A DNA stretch of 47,106 nucleotides, taken from Thermovirgaceae bacterium (GTDB taxonomy: Bacteria > Synergistota > Synergistia > Synergistales > Thermovirgaceae). Made by a program: the position numbers and the translations under genes. The stretch is taken from assembly GCA_030656095.1 (NCBI GenBank), contig JAUSOU010000101.1:1-47106 (forward strand). Direction: 5' to 3'. How positions within the stretch are numbered: position 1 is the first letter of the stretch; each line of letters opens with the position of its first letter. A model generated the notes under the pieces. That model was not told the origin of the DNA and made no database searches. It was given only the letters and a program-made list of their open reading frames with translations. Of this stretch, positions 4,001-47,065 are shown in pieces.

Positions 4001-4336
4001 AAGTGTTTTCTCGAGGGTTACGGAGAATACGGGATCGTCGCCCTGACAAATGAAAACATCCGGTCTCTCGAGGTCTACACAGAATCAGGCGAGAGGCTCA
4101 CAGAGTTCCCAGGCCAGGTTTTCGGCGGGGGAGACGACTCCAGGAGGATCTTCAACGGGAAACACTCGGTTGTGATCCCCTTCAGGCTCGGCGAGAATCT
4201 TATGATAACTCTTCGAGGCAATGGAGAACCCGTCGATGCGATAAAGATCCTCCCCAACGGCATCAACGTCCAGCGGTACGGCTTCCGTCCGGGGAGCGAA
4301 ACCATCAACGTCTACGGCGATGTGGTGAGGCCGTAA
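1013..4336 (+). CDS. Large exported protein of unknown function (1107 aa)
   Basis: Long ORF with N-terminal signal sequence (LILVSIAGALFLACC...SEALA|AP); no family recognised. Confidence 0.8.
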   Translation: MTARKLMHSLILVSIAGALFLACCDVFSSEALAAPSWLQVGQPVPAQFAFSGEVPSMEELREAFIRRFGTDPSKWPDEFRRIHETQVAFNKRALASSKFQGQFGREALDKIRVQAEDPVGYWVRSLYDGWGFEEWFNHDHLTVQRVPRALLGRFLNELFPLMWRDIRSIIHVQELMLGFPDAKFVPYNSYDGQVLHLRKRDVLEYNGLIEKAANKYIRENDFLMLLLMPERIDTNWVGDAGLEASLVSRAKKLSGRIQDVVRNMDRSFRESFYKAVPRLTYSWNEEPWSENHVVLDGKPKKRSANVDLLGVSTRIEHPFIGEKTTVKDQKILSGAALKLQWGTAPVHSSEFDKGAVVAKISSRYMIAKKQYGESKEFVLSLYLDHVSGFGHEVAFTPADGPPYPEGIGEEIMNAVTAAFFEAAETLYGKSSMNEPQALNVPGTQVLGPASVRKVLLKPPKEKRLNVIGDEPRGSSFTVSVWDGRKKFPHAEVSVRKPEVGSLSSKNATGGDEKWLFITTGPLGDAEVVYDPPSNSELKTLGPIQWDVVIVVEDTLGGEGSSLTLKVIRPRDIDITAEHAVLPADPSFANPVRFRFDGKGPGSDPSERFRIKIRALSGMGVLSTKRGDIGGRSTLALEIEADREHELFYRWLGDRKLKGPVAETLLFEVPELEIKGSVTFSVGVAPYIHSPQGTHPDIKQPGLFIPLKVYVQDEYHPDLDMAAFLKAFGLKPVLDIRQVSFEPVESDGSKSSQILEAILQHIKGAELPRDVQSLEPESWSLVKESGSRWFIAGDTPGGDYSSENVIPGVIPWEYGDYTFRISMNLEDTRGVSVEPLRRTMTSILHVRPFAPSSGDGQADLILPLILAFSAIFPGEDTRQFAAKSRNLLQKGDFEAVSVALGEQFSQRLSWSSISDLANAADRERLVKLVAKAHGISGASLSEDIVNESIFRTKRNFLCAVAGVYAESFLSGGYDLSRLAEGPSSGANGSEVLILEMIKCFLEGYGEYGIVALTNENIRSLEVYTESGERLTEFPGQVFGGGDDSRRIFNGKHSVVIPFRLGENLMITLRGNGEPVDAIKILPNGINVQRYGFRPGSETINVYGDVVRP

Positions 4337-4360
4337 CTCGTGACTCGTAACTCGTAACTT
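4332..4360 (+). repeat. Heptad array, left arm (CGTAACT CGTGACT CGTAACT CGTAACT)
   Basis: Direct reading, exact 7-bp period; inverted partner at 4487-4517. Confidence 0.9.
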
Positions 4361-4486: not shown

Positions 4487-4517
4487 CGAGTCACGAGTTA
4501 CGAGTCACGCGTTACGG
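4487..4517 (-). repeat. Heptad array, right arm (inverted copy)
   Basis: cgagtcacgagttacgagtcacgcgttacgg; its reverse complement closely matches 4332-4360. Confidence 0.9.
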
Positions 4518-4523
4518 TTTTTC

Positions 4524-5534
4524 CTATTTCGTCATCAAAAACCCCGTTCCCATCTCGTCGTTTTTCTGCTGGAGCAGGAAGTTGAACCCTGTCACGCTGG
4601 CTCTCCCCCGGATGAACGGGAGAACGGTTTCATAACCCCCGATCTTTGGCCCCGGCTGGTAGTGGCCGTGGAAAACGCTGCCCACGACGCTCTCGTGATC
4701 GAACACCTCTCCCGGTTTAAGCAGCCCCTTGGCGGCCAGGAGCGCCATCTTCGCGCAGGTGCCTGTCCCGCACGGCGAGCGGTCCACGTTGCTCTCTCCG
4801 AAAAGCACGCAGTTCTTGGTTGGTTTTCCCGGGCGCTCAAGGGCGAACTCGGTGAGTCCAATGGTGTTGATGTGTTTTTCGGTCGGATGCTGGACCGGCA
4901 CTGCCCGGTTGACCTCCCTGAGGATCTCCAGGCCGAGCCTGAGAAGTTCCGGGACCTCCTCGCGCTCGAGTGTCAGGCCAAGCTCCTCTGCGTGTACAAT
5001 AGCGAAGAAGTTTCCGCCGAACGCTATATCGAGATGGATCTTCTTTCCGCCCCGCGAGGGTACCGCAAGCTCAACGTCGCGCTTGAAGACAAAGGCCGGA
5101 ACGTTGGCCAGGGTCACATCCCCTACAACCCCGTTCTTAACCTCGACCTTGAGACGGATCTGCCCGACCGGTGTGTCCAGAACCACCTCGGTGTGCGGCT
5201 CGGTCCGCGGAACCATGCCGAGCTCAACAAGGGCGTTGGCCGTCCCTATGGAACCGTGGCCGCACATGGAAACCCCGTCGCCGGAATCCATGAAAAGCAC
5301 TCCGTAGTGCGAATCTTCGCGCTCGGGAGGGGTCAGAAACGCCCCGAACATGTCGCCGTGACCCCGGGGCTCGTGCATGACGAAATTGCGGAAGTCGGAA
5401 AGGTTTTCCTTGAGGTAGGCCCATTTTTCGCTCATGGTTTTTCCCGGGAGGTGAGGCCCCCCTCCGATGATAATGCGGGTGGGTTCTCCTCCTGTGTGGG
5501 TGTCCACAACTGCGGTGGCGCGTACTATCTCCAT
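4524..5534 (-). CDS. Proline racemase / 4-hydroxyproline 2-epimerase family protein
   Basis: DTHTGGEPTRIIIGG, EPRGHGDMFGA, MCGHGSIG and RSPCGTGTC motifs; both catalytic Cys present, so racemase/epimerase rather than the 3-Hyp dehydratase branch. Confidence 0.9.
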   Translation of the reverse strand: MEIVRATAVVDTHTGGEPTRIIIGGGPHLPGKTMSEKWAYLKENLSDFRNFVMHEPRGHGDMFGAFLTPPEREDSHYGVLFMDSGDGVSMCGHGSIGTANALVELGMVPRTEPHTEVVLDTPVGQIRLKVEVKNGVVGDVTLANVPAFVFKRDVELAVPSRGGKKIHLDIAFGGNFFAIVHAEELGLTLEREEVPELLRLGLEILREVNRAVPVQHPTEKHINTIGLTEFALERPGKPTKNCVLFGESNVDRSPCGTGTCAKMALLAAKGLLKPGEVFDHESVVGSVFHGHYQPGPKIGGYETVLPFIRGRASVTGFNFLLQQKNDEMGTGFLMTK

Positions 5535-7898: not shown

Positions 7899-7931
7899 CG
7901 TAACTCGTGACTCGTAACTGGTGACTAGTAA
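7899..7931 (+). repeat. Heptad array, left arm
   Basis: cgtaactcgtgactcgtaactggtgactagtaa. Confidence 0.85.
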
Positions 7932-8000: not shown

Positions 8001-8012
8001 TTGAAAGTCCCT

Positions 8013-8036
8013 GATATCTGATATATCATATATCTG
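8013..8036. promoter_or_regulatory. Putative operator of the GntR regulator
   Basis: gatatctgatatatcatatatctg: AT-rich palindromic sequence ~20 bp before ATG 8056. Confidence 0.45.
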
Positions 8037-12040: not shown

Positions 12041-12071
12041 GAACAGGAGACAGGAGACAGGAGACAGGAAA
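12041..12071 (+). repeat. Heptad array, CAGGAGA family
   Basis: gaacaggagacaggagacaggagacaggaaa starting directly after the TAG stop. Confidence 0.85.
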
Positions 12072-12086
12072 ATCCAAACCATAAAC

Positions 12087-12124
12087 TTCACCACGGAGGA
12101 CGCAGAGTAACACAGAGGAGAACC
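12087..12124 (+). repeat. CACAGAG-type repeat, left arm
   Basis: ttcaccacggaggacgcagagtaacacagaggagaacc. Confidence 0.8.
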
Positions 12125-12187
12125 TGTTTATGTGAAGAATAAATCAGGACCGATCAAAATAATTGATTTGTTTTTATCTCATAAAAG

Positions 12188-12226
12188 ATTTTCTCTGTGG
12201 TTCTCTGTGCTCTCTGTGGTGCAAAA
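12188..12226 (-). repeat. CACAGAG-type repeat, right arm (inverted)
   Basis: ttttctctgtggttctctgtgctctctgtggtgcaaaat. Confidence 0.8.
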
Positions 12227-12277
12227 TTTGGGTTTTGCCTTTTCTGACTCCTTGCTTTTCACCCTTGGAGGTCTCCC

Positions 12278-13429
12278 ATGAAATTTTCGTCCCTGTTCTC
12301 GTTTCTGGGCATAGCCTTAAGCATCTATGCGGCGGCAAATCTCTATATATGGATACATCTGGCCAGGGTGATCCCTTACCTGGGGTCTCTCAGGATACCT
12401 GTGCTGGTGGGGTTCTGGCTCCTTGTCGCCGCGTTCCCGCTGGGCAGGATCGGCGGGACGATCTTCCGCTGCAGATTCACAGACACTCTTGCCGTCCTGG
12501 GTTCGTGGTACATGGCGGCCATGATAATGGCCCTGCTTATGCTTGGGCTTCTGGACATTTTGCTGGTAGCCGATCAATGGCTCCGCATTTTCCCGGATTC
12601 CCTGGCAAGGCGTCCGGAGATGGCGCGGCTGGTTTTCTTCTGGGTGATCGTCTCCCTGACGGTCATTTTCGTCGCCGCAGGGCGATGGAACGCCATCCAT
12701 CCGGTACTTCGGGAATATGAGATCACCCTCAGGGGAACTCCGCAAGATGCTCCGGTCCGTGTTGTCGTGGCGACGGATCTTCATGTGGGTCTTATGGTAA
12801 AGAACCACTGGCTGGGCAGGATGATCGAAGTCATCAACTCGGCCTCGCCTGATGTTGTGCTTCTGGTGGGGGATACCGTCGATTCCGACGCCACTCACGC
12901 CCAAGAGGAGAGGCTCTCCGATGAGCTGGCTTTGATCTCCGCTCCGCTCGGGGTTTATGCCGTGCTGGGCAATCACGAATTCTACTCGGGAGCCCAGGAG
13001 GCCGTTAACTCGTACGAAGCCGGAGGCGTGAGAGTCCTCCGCGATGAATGTGTCGTCATAGGAGATGCCTTTACTCTCTTGGGCCGCGATGACAGGGTAT
13101 CGCCACGGATGGGACTCAATCGCCTTCCTCTGGCAGAGATACCGGGAGTGAACGGGGGTCTCCCTGTAATAGTGATGGATCACACGCCGTCGCATCTTGG
13201 GGAGGCGGAGAAAGCCGGAGTCGCACTGCAGGTCTCCGGCCACACGCACAGGGGACAGCTGTGGCCGTTCAACTACATAACAGCCCACATCTTTGAACAG
13301 GACTGGGGTTTTCTCAAGAAAGGGAAAACGCTTTATTACATCTCCTGCGGAGTTGGTGTCTGGGGTCCGCCGATCAGGACATCCAGCCGCCCGGAAGTGG
13401 TGGTGCTGAAGATAAGATTTGAACCGTAA
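12278..13429 (+). CDS. Membrane-associated metallophosphoesterase (YaeI/YkuE-like)
   Basis: N-terminal TM helices; VVVATDLHVG, VLLVGDTVD, AVLGNHEFY, VSGHTHRGQ motifs. Confidence 0.9.
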   Translation: MKFSSLFSFLGIALSIYAAANLYIWIHLARVIPYLGSLRIPVLVGFWLLVAAFPLGRIGGTIFRCRFTDTLAVLGSWYMAAMIMALLMLGLLDILLVADQWLRIFPDSLARRPEMARLVFFWVIVSLTVIFVAAGRWNAIHPVLREYEITLRGTPQDAPVRVVVATDLHVGLMVKNHWLGRMIEVINSASPDVVLLVGDTVDSDATHAQEERLSDELALISAPLGVYAVLGNHEFYSGAQEAVNSYEAGGVRVLRDECVVIGDAFTLLGRDDRVSPRMGLNRLPLAEIPGVNGGLPVIVMDHTPSHLGEAEKAGVALQVSGHTHRGQLWPFNYITAHIFEQDWGFLKKGKTLYYISCGVGVWGPPIRTSSRPEVVVLKIRFEP

Positions 13430-13452
13430 ATCGCGAGTCGTGTGATCTGTAA
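13425..13452 (+). repeat. Heptad array (degenerate left arm) overlapping a stop codon
   Basis: cgtaaatcgcgagtcgtgtgatctgtaa; TAA stop of the upstream gene lies inside. Confidence 0.65.
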
Positions 13453-13572
13453 AAGGGCTGGCAAGGTTACGCAGTTGAAGCTTTCAAGGATATTTGTTCA
13501 GAGGTTCCTTAATAGACAAAACCATATCGATCATGATACCGTAATACAAAATAGATCGATGGAGGTATTGGC

Positions 13573-13779
13573 ATGCAATCAGTAACCATATCACCAAAAT
13601 ATCAAATCGTTATACCAAAAACAGTTAGAGAGGCATTGAATCTTCGTCCGGGCCAAAAAATGCAGGTTGTCGAATATGCCGGACGTATTGAACTTATACC
13701 GGAACGTGATATCAAAGAACTCCGTGGATTCCTCAAGGGCATCAATACAGAATTCAACCGAGAGGAAGATAGGGTATGA
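13573..13779 (+). CDS. AbrB/VapB-type antitoxin
   Basis: SpoVT/AbrB swapped-hairpin fold sequence: VTISPKYQIVIPKTVREALNLRPGQKMQVVEYAGRIELIP. Confidence 0.9.
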   Translation: MQSVTISPKYQIVIPKTVREALNLRPGQKMQVVEYAGRIELIPERDIKELRGFLKGINTEFNREEDRV

Positions 13780-14150
13780 ATATCGTTGATTCTTCCGGCT
13801 GGCTTGCCTACTTCGCAGATGAGCCTAATGCCGAGCATTTCTTAGCCCCGCTCAGTGACTCAGCTTTGCTTGTCGTCCCAACCGTAACGATATACGAGGT
13901 ATTCAAGGTCATTCTCAGGGAGTCCGGCGAGAATGAAGCGCTGCAGGCGATTGTGGCTATGCAAAAAGGAACGGTTGTGGATATGAACACACCATTGGCA
14001 ATCACCGCTTCAAAGCTGAGTCTGGAGCATAATCTTCCTATGGCGGATAGTATCATTCTTGCGACGGCGCAGGAATTCAAAGCCATTCTCTGGACTCAGG
14101 ATTCAGATTTCAAAAATATAAGTAATGTGAAGTATTTTCCCAAGAAATAA
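13776..14150 (+). CDS. PIN-domain toxin (VapC-type)
   Basis: MNIVDSSGWLAYF, DSIILATAQ, LWTQDSDF acidic motifs; ATGA overlap with antitoxin. Confidence 0.9.
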   Translation: MNIVDSSGWLAYFADEPNAEHFLAPLSDSALLVVPTVTIYEVFKVILRESGENEALQAIVAMQKGTVVDMNTPLAITASKLSLEHNLPMADSIILATAQEFKAILWTQDSDFKNISNVKYFPKK

Positions 14151-14348
14151 GAAATAGCCAACCAATCAGTCCACCGGATCCTCATTGATACCTTTTTCCG
14201 AGTGCGATTATTTGGCAGACTTGTCCAATATGGCCTCCAAAACCGTTTCGGTTACTGGGGCATGTTCCCGATTTCAGTTTATTTTGGACAGCTCCGGGTT
14301 TTGCATTTACCAGTGATCCTGCCTTCGGCATTTATGTCCCTGCTCTTC

Positions 14349-14380
14349 CGAGTCACGAGTTACCAGTAACGAGTCACGGC
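14349..14380 (-). repeat. Heptad array, right arm
   Basis: cgagtcacgagttaccagtaacgagtcacggc, 4 bp from the stop of the phosphomannomutase gene. Confidence 0.85.
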
Positions 14381-14384
14381 CTCT

Positions 14385-15767
14385 TTAATACTCCCACTCA
14401 AACTCATTGACCCCGGCCTTTAGTATCCTGCGCTTGAGGTCTTGTGAATATTCCGCAAGATCCTCCTTTGACTTTCCCTCTACTCTTGCAACAATGACCG
14501 GCTGGGTGTTCGAAGCCCGTACAAGCCCCCACCCCCTGGGGTAAAGGATCCTTACGCCGTCGACCGTTATAGCCTCGTGATCCCTGAGCGCGTCCTCTTT
14601 GATCTGCTCTATCACCTGGAATTTGCGTTCGTCGGTGCAGGTTATCCGGGTCTCGGCGGTGCTGTAATAGACAGGGACATCCGAAAGAAGTTCCGACAGC
14701 TTTCTGTCGGAGTTCGAGAGAATGCGGAGCAGCCTCCCGGCGGCGTAGAAAGAGTCGTCGAAACCGTAAAACTCGTCGGCGAAGAACATGTGCCCCGAGA
14801 CCTCGCCGGAAAAGAGCGCGTCAATTTCCTTCATTTTCGCCTTGATGAGGGAGTGTCCGGACTTCCACCAGACGACATTCCCCCCAAGGCGGTTGATCTC
14901 GTCAACCAGGGCCTGGGAGCTCTTCACCTCAACTATAGCGTCGGCTCCCTGGTGAAGAGGAAGGATCTCTCTCCAGAAGAGTATCATCAGGATATCTCCC
15001 CAGACGACCTCGCCCCGGTCGTCTATGACGCCGATCCTGTCGGCGTCACCATCGAAACCCAGCCCAAGGTCGGCACCCTCCCGGCGGACCGTCTCGATGA
15101 GGTCCACAAGATACTCGCGTTTTGTAGGGTCCGGGTGATGGTTGGGGAAAGTACCGTCCGGTTCCGCAAAGAGGGGGATAACTTCACATCCGATGTCTTT
15201 AAGGAACTTGTTTACCATTGGGCCTGCTGTCGCGTTGCCCGGGTCGGTGACTACCTTCAGTTTGCGGGGTCCCAGGGTTATCTTCGATCGCAGCATCCCG
15301 AGATATTCCCCGGAAAGATCGAGTTCGGTCACGGAACCCTGTTCGGGAGTCCTGACAAGGTCGTCTGCCTGGATCATCCGTCGGATCTCCTGGATCTGGT
15401 CGCCGTAGAGAGTCGTCTTTTCGAAAGCGAGTTTCAGGCCGTTGAACTCCTTCGGGTTGTGGCTTCCGGTTATCATTACGCCGCCGTTGAAGTCCAGGTG
15501 GAAGAGGCTCCAGTAAAGGAGCGGGCTGGTAACTACTCCGAGGTTCACGACATCGATACCGCCGGAAGTCAACCCTTCGATGATGTCTCTTCGGATCCTT
15601 TCGGTCGACAGCCTGACGTCTCCGCCGACAGTGATCTTTTTCACGCCGCTGCGGGCCAGAAATGTCCCGAAAGCAAGCCCTATGGCGAGAACTGTTTCGC
15701 TGGCAAGTTCCTCTTCAGCGTTTCCACGGATGTCGTATTCCCTGAATATGTTGGCGGGAACCTTCAT
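14385..15767 (-). CDS. Phosphomannomutase/phosphoglucomutase
   Basis: FREYDIRGNAEEEL, ITGSHNPKEFNGLK, GFDGDADRIGV, GEVSGHMFF motifs. Confidence 0.93.
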   Translation of the reverse strand: MKVPANIFREYDIRGNAEEELASETVLAIGLAFGTFLARSGVKKITVGGDVRLSTERIRRDIIEGLTSGGIDVVNLGVVTSPLLYWSLFHLDFNGGVMITGSHNPKEFNGLKLAFEKTTLYGDQIQEIRRMIQADDLVRTPEQGSVTELDLSGEYLGMLRSKITLGPRKLKVVTDPGNATAGPMVNKFLKDIGCEVIPLFAEPDGTFPNHHPDPTKREYLVDLIETVRREGADLGLGFDGDADRIGVIDDRGEVVWGDILMILFWREILPLHQGADAIVEVKSSQALVDEINRLGGNVVWWKSGHSLIKAKMKEIDALFSGEVSGHMFFADEFYGFDDSFYAAGRLLRILSNSDRKLSELLSDVPVYYSTAETRITCTDERKFQVIEQIKEDALRDHEAITVDGVRILYPRGWGLVRASNTQPVIVARVEGKSKEDLAEYSQDLKRRILKAGVNEFEWEY

Positions 15768-15809
15768 GCTGAGACCTCCCCGAAGAAAATCCTTATTTTA
15801 TCATACCAC

Positions 15810-16835
15810 CTATAGCAGCGTGTTATGGCGCAGTGTTGCCTCAACGGTCATACGGACTGCGTCCTCGAGCTTAGTGACCGGTTCCCAGCCCAGCAGTCGC
15901 TTGGCCTTGGCGATCGAAGGAACCCGGTCAAGAACGTCCTCGTACCCCTTCCCGTAATAATCCCTGGAGTCTATCTCCACCAGCCCGGCTCTTTCGGCCT
16001 TTTCCCGGCATTGGGGAAATTCCTTCAAAATACGGATTATGGCCAGAGCCAGCTCCTTGATGGAGGCGTTGTTGGCCGGGTTTCCGATGTTGAAGATCTC
16101 ACCGTCGGCGCAGCCGTTTTCGTTTCTGATTATCGTCTCAAGGCCCCTGACCCCGTCCCCGATCCAGGTGAAGCTTCTCCTCTGGCGGCCTCCACCGACA
16201 AGGGAGACGTCCCTTCCGTGGAGGACGTCATAGAGGATCTGGGTGATGGAACGGGCCTTATGCGCCTCCGCGTCAGCAAAAGTGTCGAGCCGGGAACCTA
16301 TCCAGTTGAAGGGCCGGAAAAGCGTGTACCTGAGCCCCTCCTCCTGTCCGTAGGCGGCGATCACGCGGTCCATCATCTGCTTGCTGCAGCTGTAGATCCA
16401 TCGCGATTTGCACACAGGCCCGAGGATGATAGGGCTCTCGTCCTCCTTGAGTTCCTTGTCCGTGCTCATCCCGTAAACCTCTGATGTCGAGGGGAAGATC
16501 ACGCGTTTTTTGTGCTTCACGCACATGCGAACGATCTTGAGGTTGGCCTCGAAATCCAGGTGAAATGTCATGACCGGGTTCGTGATGTAGAACGCGGGCC
16601 TGGCGATGCCGACAAGGGGCAATACCGAGTCGCAATTTTTTACGGCGTCGTCGATCCATTCATCCTCGGTGTAAAAGTCTCCCTGTTTGAATGAAAACCG
16701 GTCCTTGCCCAGGCAGTTGCCGAGGTTGAAATCCTTGATATCGAATCCGGTGATATTCCACTCCGTATTTTCGAGCAGGTGCTCGCAGAGATGCGACCCG
16801 ATAAATCCGTTGGCGCCGAGAATAAGAACCTTCAA
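15810..16835 (-). CDS. UDP-glucuronate decarboxylase, stand-alone equivalent of the ArnA C-terminal domain
   Basis: LILGANGFIGSHLCEHLLE, IFPSTSEVYGM, RWIYSCSKQMMDRVIAAYG, FRPFNWIGSRLD, GEIFNIGNPANNASI, YYGKGYEDV match ArnA dehydrogenase domain. Confidence 0.92.
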   Translation of the reverse strand: MKVLILGANGFIGSHLCEHLLENTEWNITGFDIKDFNLGNCLGKDRFSFKQGDFYTEDEWIDDAVKNCDSVLPLVGIARPAFYITNPVMTFHLDFEANLKIVRMCVKHKKRVIFPSTSEVYGMSTDKELKEDESPIILGPVCKSRWIYSCSKQMMDRVIAAYGQEEGLRYTLFRPFNWIGSRLDTFADAEAHKARSITQILYDVLHGRDVSLVGGGRQRRSFTWIGDGVRGLETIIRNENGCADGEIFNIGNPANNASIKELALAIIRILKEFPQCREKAERAGLVEIDSRDYYGKGYEDVLDRVPSIAKAKRLLGWEPVTKLEDAVRMTVEATLRHNTLL

Positions 16836-16903
16836 AAGAAAACCCCCCTTTGGCTGGAGAAAAAATCAAGAGTAAGAATTTCAAAAAGAGAAAACCCAAG
16901 TCT

Positions 16904-16940
16904 TTCACCACGGAGGACACAGAGGGCCACAGAGAAAGGC
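16904..16940 (+). repeat. CACAGAG-type repeat
   Basis: ttcaccacggaggacacagagggccacagagaaaggc. Confidence 0.8.
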
Positions 16941-17206
16941 AAAAGCCTTTTTTGGATTTAGAAACAAAAGAACCTGAAATATTTTTTCTGATTTATTGAG
17001 TTGATCTGCGTCCATCTTCGTAATACCCTACAGTCACCCATCGGCGGATCCGGAATTTCAGAATTACAGAAAGGCAAAGACGTGGATCACAAATTGTGAC
17101 CGGTTACAAGTTCCCGGGTCTTGTAATTCAGAGTCCGGCCATGGGTTGTGCAAAGAATCCGGGTCTGATCCTGTAACTTGAAGTATTGTATTTGGTTTTG
17201 ATCTTT

Positions 17207-17230
17207 CGAGTTACGAGTCACGTGTCACGC
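17207..17230 (-). repeat. Heptad array, right arm, overlapping the 3' end of the formyltransferase CDS
   Basis: cgagttacgagtcacgtgtcacgc; TAA stop (17211-17213, minus strand) is inside. Confidence 0.85.
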
Positions 17231-18080
17231 TCTTCTCATCCACCCTTACAACTCCCTTGCCCGCGGCGACGAGAAAAGGGTCCGTGGATATCACGGTTCC
17301 GGGAGAAGCATCGGCATTCTCGTCCAGGGGTGTTGCCTTCCAGATGAAGATCTTCTCGCCGTTCAGAACGGCGAAGGCTCCCGGATAGGGGTGAGTCACG
17401 GCCCTGACAAGGTTGCAGATGTTTCTGGCCGGGGCGTTCCAGTCTATCCTGCCGTCCTTCGGTCTTCTGCCTCCGAAGTACGTCGCCTGCGAACGATCCT
17501 GTTCCTTCCGCGGGGCCTTTCCCGATTCCAGCAGAGGCAGGTTCCTCGTGATGACCTTTTCGGCGGCATCCGCAATTTTCAGCATCACGTCCATCGCTGT
17601 GTCGCTCTCTTCGATGGGAACCCTTTCCTGGTCGACGATGTCCCCCTCGTCGGGGTGCTTCGTCATCCAGTGAAGCGTGGGGCCCGTCTCGGTTTCTCCA
17701 TTGATGATGGCCCAGTTGACGCAGGCTCTTCCTCGGTACTTCGGCAGAAGCGACCCGTGCATATTGAAGGCTCCCAGGCGCGGTATCTCAAGGATAGGTT
17801 CAGGGATGATGTCGCGATAATAAAAGGAGAAGATCAGTTCCGGCTGAAGGTTCCTTATCTGATCCAGGATTTCAAGGGTTTTCACTCCATCAGGAGTGAA
17901 AACGGGTAGTCCGTTGTCCAGCGCGAGCTCCCTCACGGAGCTAAACCATGTATTTTCACCCGGGTCGTCCTCGTAGGTGAAAACTGCCCGCACATCAGCG
18001 CCGGAGCGCAGCAACGCTCCGAGGCATCTGTAACCCACCTCACTGTAGGCAAAAACCACTATCCCCGGTCTGTCACTCAT
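17211..18080 (-). CDS. UDP-Ara4N formyltransferase, stand-alone equivalent of the ArnA N-terminal domain
   Basis: AFNMHGSLLPKYRGRACVNWAIINGETETGPTLHWM, DEGDIVDQ, GRIDW: formyltransferase fold of ArnA/Fmt type. Confidence 0.9.
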   Translation of the reverse strand: MSDRPGIVVFAYSEVGYRCLGALLRSGADVRAVFTYEDDPGENTWFSSVRELALDNGLPVFTPDGVKTLEILDQIRNLQPELIFSFYYRDIIPEPILEIPRLGAFNMHGSLLPKYRGRACVNWAIINGETETGPTLHWMTKHPDEGDIVDQERVPIEESDTAMDVMLKIADAAEKVITRNLPLLESGKAPRKEQDRSQATYFGGRRPKDGRIDWNAPARNICNLVRAVTHPYPGAFAVLNGEKIFIWKATPLDENADASPGTVISTDPFLVAAGKGVVRVDEKSVTRDS

Positions 18081-19024: not shown

Positions 19025-20185
19025 TTAGCCGCAAATTTCCAGCACCGCTTCGACACCGTCCGCGATGTCGTCATCGGTCATGGCTGGGAACAGTGGGAGA
19101 GAGATAATGCGGCCGCTTACGTATTCAGCGTTCGGGAAATCGCCCCTCTTCCATCCATAGTTTTCAGAGAAATACGAAAAAAGATGTATTGCCTGGTAGT
19201 GCAGTGCTGTTCCGATGTTCTTCTCCCTCATTTTGCCCATGAATTCGTCACGGGACATTTCCAGCCGGTCTGTTTCGACGAGCGGGGTGAAGATGTGCCA
19301 GGAGTGAGTGTCTTTGGGGTCCGGCACCGGAGGCAGGGATAGCGTCTTGAGCCCTCCCAGCTTGCGGCGGTAGAGATCGACGATCTCCCGTCTTTTTGCG
19401 TTGAAGGCCTCCAGGTGCTTCAGCTGGTCGCTGCCTATGGCGGCCTGGATGTCAAGCATGTTGTATTTCAGTCCGGGGAAGAGGATGTCGTAGTGCGGGT
19501 TTCCCGTGACGGCGTAGCGGTTCCACGCCCCCTTGCTCATGCCGTGCTGGCGGAGAACCGAGACCTTCTCGGCAGCATCCTCGCACTCCGTGCAGACCAT
19601 TCCGCCCTCACCCGTTGTGATGTTCTTGGTCGGGTGAAAACTGAAGACCGCGGCGTGCCTCTCTCCAAGAGGGGCTCCGATGCGCCTTCCCCTAAAATCA
19701 GCCCCGAGGGCGTGGGCCGCGTCCTCGATGATGACAAGTCTGTGCCTTTTCGCTATTGCCTCTATGGCATCCATATCACACGGTCGTCCGGCAAAATGAA
19801 CGGGGATGATCGCCTTTGTTCTTGGCGTCACCGCCTTCTCAACAAGGGCCGGGTCGATATTCAGAGTGACGGGGTCTATGTCCGCAAGTACGGGCTTCGC
19901 TCCGACCCAGACGATCGTGTTGACAGTGGCCGCAAATGTCAACGGAGTGGTGATGACCTCGTCTCCCGGTCCTATCCCGAAGGCCAGAAGTGCAAGATGC
20001 AGCCCTGCGGTGGCGGAGTTGACGGCCAGAGAGTACGGTGAGCCGACGTACTCCCCGAAGGAGTTCTCGAAGCGCTGAGCCTTGGGCCCCGTTGTTATCC
20101 ACCCTGATCTTATCGAATCCACTACGTCCGCGATCGCTTCTTCGCTGACGTCAGGCTTCGCGAAGGGAAGAAATTCACTTCTCAT
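19025..20185 (-). CDS. arnB: UDP-4-amino-4-deoxy-L-arabinose aminotransferase (ArnB-like, PLP)
   Basis: DegT/DnrJ/EryC1 family: NSATAGLHLALLA, IIEDAAHALGA, FSFHPTKNITTGEGGM. Confidence 0.88.
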   Translation of the reverse strand: MRSEFLPFAKPDVSEEAIADVVDSIRSGWITTGPKAQRFENSFGEYVGSPYSLAVNSATAGLHLALLAFGIGPGDEVITTPLTFAATVNTIVWVGAKPVLADIDPVTLNIDPALVEKAVTPRTKAIIPVHFAGRPCDMDAIEAIAKRHRLVIIEDAAHALGADFRGRRIGAPLGERHAAVFSFHPTKNITTGEGGMVCTECEDAAEKVSVLRQHGMSKGAWNRYAVTGNPHYDILFPGLKYNMLDIQAAIGSDQLKHLEAFNAKRREIVDLYRRKLGGLKTLSLPPVPDPKDTHSWHIFTPLVETDRLEMSRDEFMGKMREKNIGTALHYQAIHLFSYFSENYGWKRGDFPNAEYVSGRIISLPLFPAMTDDDIADGVEAVLEICG

Positions 20186-21837
20186 TGGCTGGTCTCATCT
20201 CCCTTGTTGGTAACGACAACTTTTCCGGATTCCTTGATCAGAACGACTGGTCTGATGCCGTCGATCTCGAGAAAATCGAGAGGCTGCCCTTCGCGAAGGA
20301 CCAGCAGCACGCGCTCGCCGGATCTCCAGTATCTTTTGATGAATGCGGGTGTATCAGGAAACCAGTCTGACTGATCCCCCCGCTTAGAACCGAACTCAAG
20401 TTCGCCTTTCCAGTCTATCAGCACTATCCGGCGTTTCAGATAGAAGGGCAGCCCCTGGTCATACTCCCCGTACTGGGCGACGATGTCTCCCGGCAGGATA
20501 TGCTCACTCATTGCCGCCGAAACTTCCCGGACTGTCATTATCCGGTCGTAGAAGCCGAAGACATTCTTGAAAGTGGCGATGTTGAGAAATGCAAAGATGC
20601 AGAGGGTAAGTATCACTTTTCTGGACTCGCCCTTTGCGTAGAAGACCCAGGACATCACCACCAGGAGTATGAGAACAGCCGCGACAGGCGCCACGAAGGG
20701 CAGAAGCATCGTTCCGTATCTCTCGTCCAGGAATGGATAAGCCGCCAACGCGATCCCGAACGGCAAAAGCACCATGGTATTGAACAGCATTCCCATGAAC
20801 AGTCCACGGGACTTTCCGCTGTCCATGAGGTTATCCAGGAATGCCCCCGCAAGAATTGCGAGCGGCGGCATCACCGGGATGATGTATGGGATCAGTTTGG
20901 AACTGGACAGAGAGAAGAAAACGAATATGATGATGAACCAGAGCAGGAGGAATAGATTTGCCCTGTTCTGGTGAGTCTGCTTCGAAAAAGATGAGGGTAG
21001 CGATTTTCTGACGGCTCCTGGAATGAACCCGGTCCATGGGATGAAACCCGCGATCAATATGGGGATGAACCACCACCACGGCTCAAATCGCCCGTGCATC
21101 TTCGTTGTGTAGCGCAGGAAGTGCTCCTGGATGAAGAAGAATTGGAAAAAATCACGATTCTCAAGGCTCACCATGACGAACCAGGGGGTTCCGATCAGGA
21201 AGAAGAGCAGTATTCCAGGCAGGTAAAGTGCGTCGAGGATGACGCTCCACTTTCTGGTCAGGACGATCCACCAGAATGCAACTCCCGCCGGCAGAACGAT
21301 CCCTATAAGCCCCTTCGTGAGAGTAGCAAGGGCCATTCCGGCGAAAAAGAGCAGGAAGAATCTCCTGTCCCTTCGCTGCCCCATCCAGAAGCCTGCCAGA
21401 GACAGCGTAATGAAAAAGGCCAGGGGCATGTCGGTGATGTTGATCTGGCCTATGGCAAAATACACAAGTGAGGTTGCCAGAATCCATGCGGATAAAAATG
21501 CAGAACGGGGTCCGTTCATCTTGTTGGCAAGCCAGTAGGTGACGAAGACTCCTCCGAGGGCCAGGACCGCAGGCCAGAAGCGCGCGGCGAACTCGTTCTG
21601 CCCCAGCAATTTGAATGAGAACGCCGTCAGCCAGTAGTGGAGCACCGGCTTTTCGAAATAGGCCACGTAGTTGAGGCGCGGAGTGAGATAATCTCCGCTC
21701 TCTATCATCTCCCGGGGGATCTCCGAATAGCGCCCCTCGTCGGGATCGAGAAGGCCATGGTTCCCCAGCGCCACCAGGTAGAGGATCGTTGTAAGTACCA
21801 GAAGGAACAGAATATTCTTTTTGTGGGAAGAAAACAA
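20182..21837 (-). CDS. arnT: 4-amino-4-deoxy-L-arabinose lipid A transferase (ArnT-like, PMT family)
   Basis: LLDPDEGRYSEIPREMIESGDYLTPRLNYVAYFEKPVLHYW; multi-TM; proposed TTG start at 21837 with ggagg 8 nt upstream. Confidence 0.85.
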   Translation of the reverse strand: MFSSHKKNILFLLVLTTILYLVALGNHGLLDPDEGRYSEIPREMIESGDYLTPRLNYVAYFEKPVLHYWLTAFSFKLLGQNEFAARFWPAVLALGGVFVTYWLANKMNGPRSAFLSAWILATSLVYFAIGQINITDMPLAFFITLSLAGFWMGQRRDRRFFLLFFAGMALATLTKGLIGIVLPAGVAFWWIVLTRKWSVILDALYLPGILLFFLIGTPWFVMVSLENRDFFQFFFIQEHFLRYTTKMHGRFEPWWWFIPILIAGFIPWTGFIPGAVRKSLPSSFSKQTHQNRANLFLLLWFIIIFVFFSLSSSKLIPYIIPVMPPLAILAGAFLDNLMDSGKSRGLFMGMLFNTMVLLPFGIALAAYPFLDERYGTMLLPFVAPVAAVLILLVVMSWVFYAKGESRKVILTLCIFAFLNIATFKNVFGFYDRIMTVREVSAAMSEHILPGDIVAQYGEYDQGLPFYLKRRIVLIDWKGELEFGSKRGDQSDWFPDTPAFIKRYWRSGERVLLVLREGQPLDFLEIDGIRPVVLIKESGKVVVTNKGDETSQ

Positions 21838-21951
21838 AGGAATAGCCTCCAGAAAAAAGATAATTGTCTGCCCGGGAGTATAAAGGGCCCAAACTTGGAT
21901 TATTATAGCGGTATTGTTCCGATTTTTCCCATCGCACGGGAGGTGCGCTTC

Positions 21952-22317
21952 ATGGACAGACTGGGGATGCTCATGATTCTTGGCTCGGCTCTCTTCAACG
22001 CCGCGGCCAGCAGCATGATGAAGACAGGCTTCGGGCACCAGCACGACCTTTTGGAGAGAGGCTTCATCGGCGCTGTCTCCAGGATCGTTACGAATCCGTG
22101 GGCTGTTGCCGGGGTCTTCTGTTTCGGCATCTCGTTCATCTTCATGAGCGCCGCTCTGACCCGGGTCGATCTTTCGGTGGCCTATCCGGTGATGTCGGGG
22201 CTTGTATTTGTGCTGGTGCTTGGAGTGTCCGTCTTTTTCTTCTCCGAGCAGATCACACTCATGCGCCTGATGGGCGTCTTCCTGATACTATCGGGAGTGT
22301 TGGCGATAAGCAGGTAG
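21952..22317 (+). CDS. EmrE/SMR-like small membrane protein (ArnE-like flippase subunit)
   Basis: ~122 aa, four hydrophobic helices; DLSVAYPVMSGLVFVLV; ggaggt RBS before ATG 21952; sits inside the arn cluster. Confidence 0.75.
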   Translation: MDRLGMLMILGSALFNAAASSMMKTGFGHQHDLLERGFIGAVSRIVTNPWAVAGVFCFGISFIFMSAALTRVDLSVAYPVMSGLVFVLVLGVSVFFFSEQITLMRLMGVFLILSGVLAISR

Positions 22318-22320
22318 AAA

Positions 22321-22354
22321 AACAAGGAAACAGGAAACAGGAAACAGGAAAACC
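22321..22354 (+). repeat. Heptad array, CAGGAAA variant, left arm
   Basis: aacaaggaaacaggaaacaggaaacaggaaaacc directly after the stop. Confidence 0.85.
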
Positions 22355-22400
22355 CCAATCCAGTGGCAGATTACAGGTAGGGGTCGGCATTAAGGTTTTC

Positions 22401-22436
22401 TGACGCCTGATGCCTGTCTCCTGCCTCCTGGTTTTC
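22401..22436 (-). repeat. Heptad array, CAGGAGA family, right arm (inverted)
   Basis: tgacgcctgatgcctgtctcctgcctcctggttttc. Confidence 0.75.
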
Positions 22437-23789: not shown

Positions 23790-23820
23790 CGTAACTCGTA
23801 ACTGGTGACTCGTGACTCGA
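23790..23820 (+). repeat. Heptad array, left arm
   Basis: cgtaactcgtaactggtgactcgtgactcga. Confidence 0.9.
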
Positions 23821-23928: not shown

Positions 23929-23959
23929 CGAGTCACGCGTTACGAGTCACGCGTGACGC
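23929..23959 (-). repeat. Heptad array, right arm
   Basis: cgagtcacgcgttacgagtcacgcgtgacgc, 2 bp from the citF-like stop. Confidence 0.9.
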
Positions 23960-23961: not shown

Positions 23962-25512
23962 TTATTTCTTCTTCAGCTGCCTCACTACATCAATAACGGT
24001 TCCGTCGCGGTACTCGACGACACCGATGATCCTCTCTTCCGTTTCAACCGGGGACATCTTTCCTGTGAGCCCTTCAGCTTTTTCGATGAGTTCGTCCATA
24101 GTGACAAGCGGGATGTTTCCGGCCTCTTTGGCCGCGTCGATGAGGTCCTGCCGTCTGGGGTTGATGGCAACTCCGAACTCAGTGACAACGGCGTCAACTA
24201 CCTCGCCCGGCGTGGTGACTGTGTAGACTGAATCCACGGCGCAGGGGATCCGGCCGCGCAGCAGGGGAGTGGTTATGATCGTCAGCTGAGCTCCGGCCGC
24301 GGTGTCCTGGTGACCGCCGATCCCGTGCAGCAGGGCGCCGTCCGCCTCGGTGTTGACGTTGGCGTTGAAGTTCCGGTCCACTTCCGTTGCTCCGAGGACC
24401 ACGGTGTCGAGCATATTGACGGCGCATCCGGCGTTCCAGGGGTTGGCGTACCAATCGGCCGATATCTCTATGTGGTTGGGATTCTCGCCGATGGACTTGA
24501 CTGCGGCCAGGTCGAAAGACTGGACATCCATCAGCCGCTCGAAGAGACCTTCCTTCATCATGTCGACGAAGAACTCTGTGATGCCTCCCAGTCCGAAACT
24601 CCCCTTGATGCCCCTCTCGCGCATTGCGTCCCTTACGTAAGCCGCTACGGCAAGGGAGATGCCGCCTGCCCCCGTCTGGAAGGAGATCCCGTCCTTGAAA
24701 TACTGGCTGGATTCGATCAGTCTGGCAGCGTTTCTTGCGATCAGAAGCCTCATGGGATCCCTGGTTACGCGGGTGGTACCGCTTACGATTCCCGCCGGGT
24801 CCCCGATCGATTCGACCGTAACGACGTAATCGACGAAATACTGCGGAATATGGATGTTGGAAGCGGGGAACGGCGCCAGGTTGTCGGTGATCGCCACGAC
24901 GCACTCGGCGTACTCCGCGTCGGAATGGGCGTAACCAAGCGAACCGCAGGCGGATTTTCCGACAGCGCCGGAGAGGTTCCCGTACCTGTCGGATGTCGGG
25001 GCCGCGATAAAGGCAACATCTATAACAATATTCCCGCTTGTAACCGCGCGGGGGCGACCGCCGTGGCTTCGCAGGACCACCGGGACTTCCATGCCGCCCT
25101 CGGAGGCCAGCTGTCCGATCGGCCCGTTGACTGATCCCTGTATCTGGCGGATCACTCCGCTCTTGATGTGTTTGGTAAGGTGTTTGTGAACCCCGAAGAG
25201 AGCGGTGGGGAATAAGACGAGGTCGCGGATCCCCATCTCCGCGCATGCGTCCATAACGGCATTTACCACGAAGTCGCCGTTGCGGAGGTGGTGGTGGAAA
25301 GAGACTGTCATCCCGCTTTTGAGGCCGGAAGCGCTTATCGCGGCCTTGATGTCGGGGAGAGTCTTGTCAGTTTTGTTGTTGAATGATGCTCTGTTTTTTT
25401 TGCCGTAACGGTTCCCCTCGGGGATCCTCTTGTCGTGCCCCTCGAAGTGCTTTACATCGCCGTACCCCGGGATGGAGTCGGGGATATTGCGCCCCGCGGT
25501 GTTGATAGTCAT
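23962..25512 (-). CDS. citF: Citrate lyase alpha subunit family (CoA transferase component)
   Basis: 516 aa, GMTVSFHHHLRNGD, GGHQDTAAGAQLTII, NVNTEADG; third member of a citDEF set. Confidence 0.88.
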   Translation of the reverse strand: MTINTAGRNIPDSIPGYGDVKHFEGHDKRIPEGNRYGKKNRASFNNKTDKTLPDIKAAISASGLKSGMTVSFHHHLRNGDFVVNAVMDACAEMGIRDLVLFPTALFGVHKHLTKHIKSGVIRQIQGSVNGPIGQLASEGGMEVPVVLRSHGGRPRAVTSGNIVIDVAFIAAPTSDRYGNLSGAVGKSACGSLGYAHSDAEYAECVVAITDNLAPFPASNIHIPQYFVDYVVTVESIGDPAGIVSGTTRVTRDPMRLLIARNAARLIESSQYFKDGISFQTGAGGISLAVAAYVRDAMRERGIKGSFGLGGITEFFVDMMKEGLFERLMDVQSFDLAAVKSIGENPNHIEISADWYANPWNAGCAVNMLDTVVLGATEVDRNFNANVNTEADGALLHGIGGHQDTAAGAQLTIITTPLLRGRIPCAVDSVYTVTTPGEVVDAVVTEFGVAINPRRQDLIDAAKEAGNIPLVTMDELIEKAEGLTGKMSPVETEERIIGVVEYRDGTVIDVVRQLKKK

Positions 25513-26688: not shown

Positions 26689-26720
26689 CGTAACTCGTGA
26701 CTCGAGACTCGTTACTCGTA
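26689..26720 (+). repeat. Heptad array, left arm
   Basis: cgtaactcgtgactcgagactcgttactcgta. Confidence 0.88.
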
Positions 26721-26771: not shown

Positions 26772-26806
26772 GCGAGTTACCAGTTACGGGTCACGAGTTA
26801 CGGGTC
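26772..26806 (-). repeat. Heptad array, right arm
   Basis: gcgagttaccagttacgggtcacgagttacgggtc. Confidence 0.88.
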
Positions 26807-26992: not shown

Positions 26993-27028
26993 ACAAAGGG
27001 TTGCATGTATCCTTGCCTTTCTGCCTTT

Positions 27029-27069
27029 CCTGTCTCCTGCCGCCTGTTGCCTGTCTCCCTGTTCCTGTA
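27029..27069 (-). repeat. Heptad array, CAGGAGA family, abutting a stop codon
   Basis: cctgtctcctgccgcctgttgcctgtctccctgttcctgta next to the minus-strand TAG at 27070-27072. Confidence 0.8.
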
Positions 27070-28305
27070 CTATGCCAAATTCTCCCATGCGCACATCTCG
27101 CGAGCTTTTGCGCAGATAGCGTTGGCCTTCTTGTCGAAGCCCGGGTCGATCTTGGCTGCTATGGCCTTTGCCATCTCGAGGGTCGAGACAGCCTTCTTCT
27201 CCCAATCCTTGTCGACTTTGTCGTCGCGCCAGATGTCGTAGGTCAGAGACTTGCTCTCGACGAGGACCTCTCCGATGGCCTTCTCGAGTTTCGCCGCGTG
27301 ATCCATCAGCCCCAGATACTCCAGCATCATTGTGGCTGCACAAAGGATGCCGCAGGGGTTGATCTTGTACTGGTGCGCGTACTTCGGGACCGAACCGTGG
27401 CTTGGTTCGAAGATAGCCGCCTCTTCGCCGATGTTTCCGCTCGGAGCGAAACCCATTCCGCCGACCAGCTGGGATGCCTCGTCGGAGAGTATGTCGCCGA
27501 ATACGTTGGACGTCACGACAACCTGATAGTCCTGCGGGTTCTTGATGAGCCACATCGCGGTGGCGTCGGCGTTCTCTTCACGTGACTCGATGTCCGGATA
27601 CTCTTTGGCTATCTCGTGGAAGCGCTCCTTCATCATTCCGTCGGTAGCCCGGATGACGTTCGCCTTGTTGCAGCAGACGACGCTCTTGAGGCCGTTGGCC
27701 TTTGCGTACTCGAAGGCTGCGCGGATGATCCTGTCGCAACCCTCTTTTGAATAGACTCGCCAGGATACCGCCACCTCTGACTTGTCCTTGAAGCGCTCCA
27801 TTCCCGGGTGAAGGTCGAACATCTCACGGGGGAGCGGGCGCCATTCTACTGCCGCGTAAAGGTCCTCTGTGTTCTCGCGGAACATCCTGATATCGATCTT
27901 CGGGTCGCCCTTCAAGGGGCACTCCAGTCCCGGCAGAAGCTTTGCGGGGCGAAAGTTGATGTAAAGGTCGAAGATCTGCCGCATCTGAAGGATGGCCGAT
28001 TTGAACCCTTTGACCCCGGCTTTGGAGGTGATGGCGGCCATCAGTGTCGCGTCGGTGCTTCTCACCTTGTCGATAGTCTCCTGGGGAACGGAGTTCCGGC
28101 GCTTGTCGCCCTCGGGGAACTCCTTGCAGGATTTCTCCCACATGCACCAGCCCATATCCGCGCGGACCCAATCGATGGGGGGGTTGAGGGCCTGCATGAC
28201 GATCAGCGCTGCTTCCATTACATCGAATCCCGAGTCGTCTCCCGGGATGTAGCTTACATTGTAGCGGGCTTTTTTCTCTTTGACCTGCATGACGTTTCTG
28301 GCCAT
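27070..28305 (-). CDS. Isocitrate/isopropylmalate dehydrogenase family protein
   Basis: YIPGDDSGFDVMEAAL, RQIFDLYINFRPAK, RENTEDLY, NVFGDILSDEASQLVGGMGFAPSGNIG. Confidence 0.9.
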   Translation of the reverse strand: MARNVMQVKEKKARYNVSYIPGDDSGFDVMEAALIVMQALNPPIDWVRADMGWCMWEKSCKEFPEGDKRRNSVPQETIDKVRSTDATLMAAITSKAGVKGFKSAILQMRQIFDLYINFRPAKLLPGLECPLKGDPKIDIRMFRENTEDLYAAVEWRPLPREMFDLHPGMERFKDKSEVAVSWRVYSKEGCDRIIRAAFEYAKANGLKSVVCCNKANVIRATDGMMKERFHEIAKEYPDIESREENADATAMWLIKNPQDYQVVVTSNVFGDILSDEASQLVGGMGFAPSGNIGEEAAIFEPSHGSVPKYAHQYKINPCGILCAATMMLEYLGLMDHAAKLEKAIGEVLVESKSLTYDIWRDDKVDKDWEKKAVSTLEMAKAIAAKIDPGFDKKANAICAKAREMCAWENLA

Positions 28306-28330
28306 GTGAATTGCCTCCTTGTTTTTAACA

Positions 28331-28361
28331 CGTAACTGGTAACTCGTGACGCGTTACTCGG
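28331..28361 (+). repeat. Heptad array, left arm
   Basis: cgtaactggtaactcgtgacgcgttactcgg. Confidence 0.88.
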
Positions 28362-28421
28362 AAAACCCAAAACCCGAAATCAGAAATCCCTGGAAGTTTT
28401 TCGATCCTGTTTTTGATCTTA

Positions 28422-28452
28422 CTGGTTACGAGTTACGCGTCACGCGTCACGG
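28422..28452 (-). repeat. Heptad array, right arm
   Basis: ctggttacgagttacgcgtcacgcgtcacgg, 3 bp from the downstream stop. Confidence 0.88.
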
Positions 28453-28455: not shown

Positions 28456-28947
28456 CTACAGTCCCAGACTCTTCTTCACGTGCGGGATCAGCCCGCCGTC
28501 CTCGATCAGCCCCTTGACGAAATCCGGGTAGGGCGTGAAGGAGAAGGTTCCCTTGGAGGTCACGACCTGGCTCTTGTCGAAATCGATCGTTACTTCCTGC
28601 CCCTTCTCAAGGGCTTCCACTGCCTCGGGGCAAACGACGATAGGAAGACCTTCGTTGAGAGCGTTGCGGTAGTAGATCCTTGCGAAACCCTTTGCGATGA
28701 TCGCGCCTATCCCGCGCATTTTGATGCAGGTCACCGCCTGCTCACGGGATGAGCCGCAGCCCCAGTTCTTGCCGCCCACGATGATATCGCCGGGTTTGGC
28801 GTTTTTCGTGAAATCCTGGTCCAGATCCTCAAGGGCGTACTGCCCCATCTCTGCGGGATCGGAGACCGTGTAAGTGTATTTGCCCGGGAAGATGACGTCT
28901 GTGTTCACGTCGTTCCCGTATTTCCAGACCTTTCCGGTGATCTTCAT
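28456..28947 (-). CDS. Aconitase/IPMI-type hydro-lyase small subunit (LeuD-like) 2
   Basis: NTDVIFPGKYTYT, GGKNWGCGSSREQA, FARIYYRNALNEGLPI. Confidence 0.9.
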   Translation of the reverse strand: MKITGKVWKYGNDVNTDVIFPGKYTYTVSDPAEMGQYALEDLDQDFTKNAKPGDIIVGGKNWGCGSSREQAVTCIKMRGIGAIIAKGFARIYYRNALNEGLPIVVCPEAVEALEKGQEVTIDFDKSQVVTSKGTFSFTPYPDFVKGLIEDGGLIPHVKKSLGL

Positions 28948-36334: not shown

Positions 36335-36343
36335 TCCGGGAAC

Positions 36344-36373
36344 CGTAAATCGTAAATCGTTAATCGTTAAGCG
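36344..36373 (+). repeat. Heptad array, CGTDAAT variant, left arm
   Basis: cgtaaatcgtaaatcgttaatcgttaagcg. Confidence 0.9.
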
Positions 36374-36432
36374 AAGAAGCAAGGTGCAAAGCCCTTGCGC
36401 AAGGGTTTTCAAGGCCTGGTTTCCCGATTTGT

Positions 36433-36470
36433 CATTCACGATTCACGATTTACGATTCACGATTCACGCC
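36433..36470 (-). repeat. Heptad array, CGTDAAT variant, right arm
   Basis: cattcacgattcacgatttacgattcacgattcacgcc. Confidence 0.9.
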
Positions 36471-40644: not shown

Positions 40645-40674
40645 CGTTAATCGTTAATCGTCGATCATAAATCG
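40645..40674 (+). repeat. Heptad array, CGTDAAT variant
   Basis: cgttaatcgttaatcgtcgatcataaatcg. Confidence 0.8.
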
Positions 40675-40755: not shown

Positions 40756-41172
40756 ATGCTTCGAATAAGACCTGGTCATCCATCAGGGATTAACAGCGCA
40801 ACAGCCAACTTCAAAACAGGAAACCTGATCGGAGGTCTCGATATGTGGCACCAGGACAGCGCAGGCAAATGGTACATGGCGGAAAGCGAAATCATAGGAT
40901 CCGATAACATCGCATCGCCCGCGGATGGCGTTGCGGTCTGGGCCAATACAGTCATATCAGGCGATTTTTTCGAGCTGGGAGTCGACAGCAGCGTTTACCT
41001 TTTTTCCTCCCAGGCCCGGGGGCATGAGAGAGCCGTAAATCGTGACTCGCACCCTGCCGCTGCGCTCGGGGCACCTTGTGACTCGGGGGATGGGGACAGG
41101 AAAACCACATCATCCAAACACAGGGTCGGGGGCGGTATGGCCCCCGCCCTTGTCATCCCGATTCACGCATAA
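40756..41172 (+). CDS. Hypothetical protein; C-terminus reads through heptad repeat
   Basis: ORF with aggaggt RBS at ~40741; C-terminal residues RAVNRDS are encoded by cgtaaatcgtgactcg. Confidence 0.45.
   Translation: MLRIRPGHPSGINSATANFKTGNLIGGLDMWHQDSAGKWYMAESEIIGSDNIASPADGVAVWANTVISGDFFELGVDSSVYLFSSQARGHERAVNRDSHPAAALGAPCDSGDGDRKTTSSKHRVGGGMAPALVIPIHA
41033..41050 (+). repeat. Short heptad array inside an ORF 3' end
   Basis: ccgtaaatcgtgactcgc. Confidence 0.6.
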
Positions 41173-46770: not shown

Positions 46771-46883
46771 TCTTTTTTTGTGAGAGACAAAACCCGGGGC
46801 CAAGGCTAAAACCTTTTCATCACGGACAAAGTCACCGTTTGGGGCGGCAGAAACAAACAGGTCAGGGCGCAAACTGCGTTTTT

Positions 46884-46964: not shown

Positions 46965-47065
46965 TCCCTTAGGTTGGTCGGGGAGGAGGAGTTTGCTCCC
47001 ATCGGGGATCAGGAACAGCGCCGGGCAATCCAAAGCCATAAAATCGCATTTACGGGGGTGATTTT

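Follow-up and report, generated by a model that had tools for sequence, protein, structure and literature searches.

The window, a stretch of 47,106 nucleotides (nt) that forms positions 1–47,106 of contig JAUSOU010000101.1 of a Thermovirgaceae bacterium, comes from the genome of an uncultured member of the Synergistota (1.92 Mb in 169 contigs, here G000), the nearest named relatives of which are the Synergistaceae metagenome-assembled genomes UBA4066 and AS06rmzACSIP_581. Its genes include those for a glycyl radical enzyme and its GntR/FCD regulator, a metallophosphoesterase, a phosphomannomutase, a formyltransferase and a UDP-sugar dehydrogenase, and the intergenic regions (IGRs) between them hold short tandem arrays of 7-nt units (heptads), which are the subject of this report. 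A period scan of the window recovered 16 period-7 arrays with the threshold used, and no array with any other period from 4 to 13 (Table 1). An Rfam scan of the window returned 0 matches above the gathering score, and a tRNA scan returned nothing. Gene models came from a simple in-house caller; for the main genes of the window they are consistent with Pfam and with orthologues. Left and right brackets are written "(" and ")", such that "( )" denotes arrays facing inward and ")(" arrays facing outward.

Table 1. Heptad arrays and heptad-like stretches of the window, with their relation to neighbouring genes
Feature	Position	Strand	Relation to genes
CGTRACT array	4332..4360	+	left bracket; holds TAA stop (4334-4336) of gene 1013-4336
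CGTRACT array	4487..4516	-	right bracket; 7 nt from stop of 4524-5534 (-)
CGTRACT array	7899..7929	+	left bracket in divergent IGR; antisense to left-hand gene
AGGAGAC array, stop-free	12041..12072	+	2 nt past TAG of glycyl radical enzyme gene
Metallophosphoesterase stop, then decayed heptad-like stretch	13427..13452	+	under detection threshold
CGTRACT array	14350..14377	-	right bracket; 7 nt from stop of phosphomannomutase gene 14385-15767 (-)
CGTRACT array	17204..17229	-	codes last residues and TAA of formyltransferase gene 17211-18080 (-)
AGGAAAC array	22325..22352	+	left bracket in divergent IGR; not at a stop
AGGARRC array	22395..22430	-	right bracket opposite 22325-22352
CGTRACT array	23790..23819	+	left bracket; 10 nt past stop of UDP-sugar dehydrogenase gene
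CGTRACT array	23929..23958	-	right bracket; adjoins stop of 23962-25512 (-)
CGTRACT array	26689..26719	+	left bracket
CGTRACT array	26774..26801	-	right bracket
AGGARRC array	27025..27066	-	right bracket; adjoins stop of 27070-28305 (-)
CGTRACT array	28325..28359	+	left bracket
CGTRACT array	28419..28451	-	right bracket; 4 nt from stop of 28456-28947 (-)
CGTDAAT array	36341..36373	+	left bracket; 6 nt past stop of 34694-36334
CGTRAAT array	36419..36468	-	right bracket; upstream of gene 36485-37315 (+)
CGTTAAT array	40645..40673	+	left bracket
Two-heptad remnant	41036..41051	+	in-frame AVNRDS within 40756-41172; frame not closed

The period-7 pattern is found genome-wide and in five Synergistota relatives. 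Genome-wide figures for G000 derive from about 597 kb of the 1.92 Mb, in contigs that were partly picked for carrying arrays, a choice that affects array density but not orientation; this sample holds 80 period-7 arrays versus 1–8 for each other period counted. The main unit is CGTRACT, with four units as the commonest array size (17 of 48 arrays) and the GTRA core as its most conserved portion; further units are CGTDAAT, GTDAACR, GTDAGAC (in G002) and AGGARRC. A weak 7-nt periodicity runs on beyond the array ends (0.352 versus 0.279 in shuffles), and arrays are joined by a common linker close to GAAAGGGCAAAAACC, which occurs in 29% of tails versus 3.3% of random intergenic sequence.

The orientation of the arrays follows a simple rule. 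In G000 and its five relatives, pooled as six genomes for the analyses of polarity and placement, and across five heptad families, all 67 arrays abutting gene 3′ ends lie in the sense direction and all 10 abutting 5′ ends lie antisense, and 253 of 307 arrays are closer to the gene on their 5′ side. Among 190 adjacent pairs in 86 multi-array IGRs (arrays that share an IGR are not mutually independent), "((" is seen 51 times, "))" 78 times, "()" 61 times and ")(" never, giving IGRs of the form ((( ))). Divergent IGRs, which have no 3′ untranslated region (UTR), show the same polarity, and so do AGGARAC arrays, whose heptads, like those of GGGTAYT, have no stop in any frame. In the genome of a Desulfobacterota symbiont (G121), which carries GGGTAYT and other heptads, sense exceeds antisense by 21:1 at 3′ ends, antisense exceeds sense by 10:0 at 5′ ends, and "()" occurs 16 times versus once for ")(". 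Period-8 arrays are also in clear excess in that genome (L219–L238), at 46 versus 97 of period 7. Heptads of Xanthomonas and Nostoc are reported to lie nearer to the open reading frame (ORF) that flanks them 5′, on whichever strand it is coded (PMC4692102). Polarity is a stronger rule than the supply of stop codons.

Compared with random positions in the same IGRs (2000 simulations), arrays are enriched near 3′ ends in G000 (24 observed, 9.7 expected; none of the 2000 simulations reached 24) and in the six genomes together (54 versus 29.6), depleted near 5′ ends (9 versus 19.2), and never overlap starts (0 versus 11.2). The excess close to stop codons that the initial annotation had anticipated is clear in G000 and G002 but not seen in G008 (8 versus 7.5) and G001 (4 versus 3.2). 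Arrays overlap 3′ ends in 10 cases versus 5.7 expected in G000 alone (P = 0.046) and in 20 versus 17.4 for the pooled genomes; pooled stop overlap thus does not exceed what random positioning at the edges of IGRs would give. One of 212 arrays lies inside coding sequence, and arrays are borne by 43% of convergent IGRs versus 15–16% of other kinds.

The arrays had been proposed to supply stop codons and C-terminal codons to neighbouring genes, with three stops said to lie inside them. Two of these do, at 4334–4336 within CGTAACTCGTGACT... and at 17211–17213 (minus strand) within CGTGACACGTGACTCGTAACTCG. Past the metallophosphoesterase stop (13427–13429) there is just a decayed stretch, TAAATCGCGAGTCGTGTGATCTGTAA, which was not detected as an array, and in relatives the protein ends in ...FQ* without one. 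The array at 17204..17229 does code for the formyltransferase C-terminus SVTRDS. RAVNRDS is likewise read in ORF 40756–41172, but from only about two heptads, in a frame that is not closed and in an ORF with a low coding score. Further arrays had been placed at gene ends, and those near the stops at 12040, 14385, 23779, 23962, 27070 and 28456 lie some 0–15 nt from them; the array given as starting at 22321 is not at the stop of a supported gene: the minus-strand gene 20182–22044 overlaps the ORF that ends at 22317, and the array sits 5′ of this gene.

A census of 328 stops in a 376-kb sample of G000 found 10 within arrays, always TAA or TGA. Five of the corresponding proteins, unrelated to one another, have heptad-coded tails (SVTRDS, ENRNS, MVTRNS, AVNRDS and PVNGNS), with the pattern V-T/N-R/G-D/N-S*. 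By frame arithmetic, forward reading of a GTRA heptad meets a stop in each frame within five codons, and the reverse strand closes no frame; array-coded tails are therefore short and alike. Of 48 CGTRACT arrays, 40 close all three sense frames and 38 close no antisense frame. Formyltransferase orthologues end in SVTRDS (G000), SVTR (G001), SVTRDA (G002), SVNGKR (G005) and a tail coded by AGGAGAC-like units (G007), each coded by the array present in that genome. Protein 1013–4336, on the other hand, ends in GDVVRP* in five genomes (G000, G001, G002, G005 and G007), in which three different stops are used and the arrays differ, a constancy that implies an ancestral stop. For this gene and for L130:4921, L133:220 and L137:8673, one or more relatives with another array or none have the stop at the identical residue, which argues that these stops too are ancestral; by such comparisons, about half of the array-internal stops are so. 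Arrays thus supply the stop and three to six C-terminal codons at some genes, whereas other stops predate them, and orthologues that lack arrays keep the C-terminus for some genes but not for others.

Relatives share about 75–83% DNA identity, and their IGRs align poorly. The same 3′ end bears different heptads in different relatives, as at 12041..12072, where relatives carry other heptads. CTCGTRA has 94 matches in G000, 14 in G001 and 0–32 across the relatives, ATCGTRA has 84 in G001 and 94 in G008, and GTDAGAC has 63 in G002 and 0 in G000; a reversed-pattern control had 0 matches in every genome. The outermost arrays that face each other belong to the same family in 35 of 61 cases (23.4 expected, P = 0.0006). 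The choice between A and G is nearly independent in the two facing arms (65 same, 43 different, p = 0.05), so neither arm is a copy of the other and pairing does not hold the two together; an origin by inverted duplication was rejected on this ground. Palindromic repeats (TGTCATTCCGAGCG...AGGAATCT...GGAATGACA) are nested between heptad arms at L127:3060–3250, L129:150–370 and L132:12570–12700.

On balance we favour the interpretation that the arrays are DNA-level, strand-polar repeats of a known but poorly understood class of intergenic heptanucleotides, grown directionally from gene borders. The period, the location and polarity of the arrays, the turnover of dialects, the tails and the lack of an RNA-pairing signature were all observed and form its basis. 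The 5′ end of each array is anchored at a gene border, its purine-rich strand reading from border into IGR, and because this holds on both sides, each IGR is bracketed by inward-facing arrays. Every genome has its own set of heptads (a "dialect"), and in the course of evolution one dialect takes the place of another at the same border. A 3′ end may also lose a few codons to an array, such that the gene gains an array-coded tail and stop; since the 7-nt step of GTRA-type heptads gives a stop in every frame within five codons, such an intrusion is survivable, and on this reading the supply of stops is a by-product. Growth itself may be directional, 5′ to 3′, through extension or through slippage where IGRs are broken or 3′ ends stall, and purifying selection presumably bars arrays from coding sequence and from starts and promoters, with 3′ ends less protected. 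More tentatively, a directional DNA process common to unrelated phyla might write purine-rich 7-nt units outward from gene borders into IGRs, at breaks or stalled 3′ ends, in a dialect that drifts from genome to genome.

Several points weigh against growth from gene borders. No enzyme could be named for the extension, no array was observed in the course of growing, and the enrichment at 3′ ends is not seen in G008 or G001. Growth at the centre of a palindrome found no support, as inner arrays are not purer than outer ones (0.920 and 0.935, respectively, p = 0.075). A weak stop bias exists at the wobble base, with T at about 12% where it keeps a stop versus 5% where it destroys one, which leaves room for some selection for stops in GTRA dialects. 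Moreover, the sense direction of each heptad family was fixed from the data (one bit each, five bits versus 67 observations), and the in-house origin of the gene models must be counted here as well.

According to the initial annotation, the arrays insert or grow at gene 3′ ends as portable stops and 3′ UTRs; on such a view they would be kept for the 3′ UTR and the stops in all frames that they provide. The 3′-end enrichment agrees with this, as do the strand-specific frame closure of CGTRACT arrays, the five array-coded C-termini in the G000 sample and the conservation of the GTRA core. However, the stop-free AGGARAC heptads and, in another phylum, the stop-free GGGTAYT heptads obey the same orientation rule, and arrays at 5′ ends are just as strictly oriented, which rules out stop supply as the general cause; with pooled stop overlap near expectation, several overlapped stops ancestral and only a weak wobble bias, we regard selection for portable stops as quite unlikely. 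Alternatively, facing arrays might be kept because their transcript forms a long stem, which would act in transcription termination or shield mRNA 3′ ends. The IGRs do fold into very stable stems (−81.8 kcal/mol for the 185 nt that include the arms 4332–4360 and 4487–4516, and −149 for 366 nt of another IGR), the stem is kept in orthologous IGRs while the heptad sequence changes, and convergent IGRs are those richest in arrays. Nevertheless, stems in tandem IGRs show no excess of G.U over A.C (32 versus 37) and hence no sign of pairing at the RNA level, the A/G choices of the arms are nearly independent, divergent borders without a 3′ UTR have the same polarity, and separate terminator-like hairpins sit between the arms. 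A role as an RNA hairpin is thus rather doubtful, and arm pairing is probably a consequence rather than a selected trait.

A further possibility is a foldback element, or one like a miniature inverted-repeat transposable element, that has heptad arrays as terminal inverted repeats and inserts into IGRs and into its own kind; it would suit the inward orientation of the terminal arrays, families that appear nested, as in A( N( )N )A, and dispersed copies with the shared linker. In a self-BLAST of IGRs, however, the interiors beyond the heptads and short linkers form no dispersed repeat family, and the side-by-side arrangement "()()", some of which random insertion should yield, is never seen, making a mobile element unlikely. 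Proteins are known that bind polar 7-bp units, among them the ribbon-helix-helix ParB of pSM19035 (PMC9499535), and the heptad could be the site of a polarity-reading protein (Chi-like or pSM19035 ParB-like) that guards genes or organises DNA; the two-sided inward polarity would be what is needed to stop an exonuclease on its way out of a break in an IGR. We consider this improbable, as heptads differ between neighbouring IGRs and between relatives, which a sequence-specific protein would not tolerate. A polar binding protein and a mobile element are both possible readings that fit less well than directional growth. In a telomerase-like mechanism, a 7-nt RNA template would be reverse-transcribed onto DNA ends; this would add repeats in the 3′ direction and so produce the observed polarity, and may be compared with DRT10, which makes tandem-repeat cDNA (PMC12632851). 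Yet heptads vary within and between arrays, and RVT_1 (PF00078) was found in none of the family's 10 genomes, with controls positive, which largely rules out templated synthesis by enzymes of the RVT_1 type and renders this mechanism extremely improbable.

If directional writing from gene borders does occur, the IGRs of array-rich bacteria would be a record of repair events, and new protein C-termini would be created repeatedly. The array-coded tails show a simple route for unrelated proteins to the same C-terminal tail. Whatever makes or keeps the heptads must know the direction from border to IGR, regardless of transcription direction, stop codons or G-quadruplexes.

Other features lie in the window. 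A 7-periodic palindrome, CTGATATCTGATATATCATATATC, is found at 8011–8034, immediately upstream of the gene for the glycyl radical enzyme operon's GntR/FCD regulator, and also occurs at the orthologous site in L040 (G007) and in Anaerolineales L042; this placement suggests that it is probably the regulator's operator and not one of the arrays. An inverted repeat at 12085–12235 and 16900–16940 (CACGGAGGACACAGAG... / CTCTGTGG...), with CACAGAG units at 8–10-nt spacing, is of a different dispersed intergenic kind and is also dispersed in G001 and G002. A 44-bp tandem repeat near the window end (TCGGAGCAACTCGGCCAGCATG..., 46883–46969) is of an unrelated kind. By eye, the segment 13573–14150, 3′ of the metallophosphoesterase gene, is a candidate for an AbrB-like antitoxin and PIN-domain toxin pair.

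Heptad repeats have been described in other bacteria. Those of marine Beggiatoaceae (TAACTGA) are mostly intergenic and mostly forward just upstream of start codons (PMC4679880); they share with the present arrays their intergenic location, stops in three frames and some overlap with the 3′ end of the upstream ORF, but arrays near starts are here rare and antisense (10 of 10). The hepta- and octanucleotide elements of Geobacter metallireducens, predicted to be regulator binding sites or RNAs and in one family also found within genes (PMC2700814), are similarly multicopy intergenic tandem heptads with some inverted pairs of variable spacing, though of other sequences. Mrazek et al. (2007), cited in both PMC4679880 and PMC4692102, found 7 nt to be the commonest unit of long bacterial repeats and proposed polymerase slippage, a model that makes by itself no prediction of polarity relative to gene borders. 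Why 7-nt units dominate has been an open question since 2007, and the bracket rule in two phyla, together with the asymmetry published for Xanthomonas and Nostoc, makes it a testable one.

The closest parallel is with the repeats of Xanthomonas and Nostoc (GGGAATC and GGGGA(C/T)T), which are intergenic, usually number about four copies, and lie on the coding strand within 0–50 bp of stops and on the non-coding strand upstream of ORFs (PMC4692102). The arrays described here resemble them in the 7-nt tandem unit, the almost exclusive location in IGRs, the preference for about four units, the coding strand by stops (67/67) and non-coding strand by starts (10/10), the overlap with stop codons, the inverted pairs, and the variation of sequence at the same genes among close relatives. 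The Xanthomonas heptad itself, as (GGGAATC)2, occurs in or beside GTGAATC arrays at L203:5641, L205:8644, L206:2919 and L209:7702 (G008) and at L129:4058 (G000), minus-strand coordinates being reverse-strand offsets. The authors of that study looked to G-quadruplexes (PMC4692102); in contrast, the main heptads here (GTRACTC, GTDAATC, GTDAACR, GTDAGAC and AGGARRC) lack GGG, and that explanation is not transferable. The present arrays are further set apart by several dialects per genome, by the absence of ")(" from the 190 adjacent pairs, and by array-coded C-termini that could be compared across orthologues. They are a non-G-quadruplex variant of the Xanthomonas/Nostoc type of heptad.

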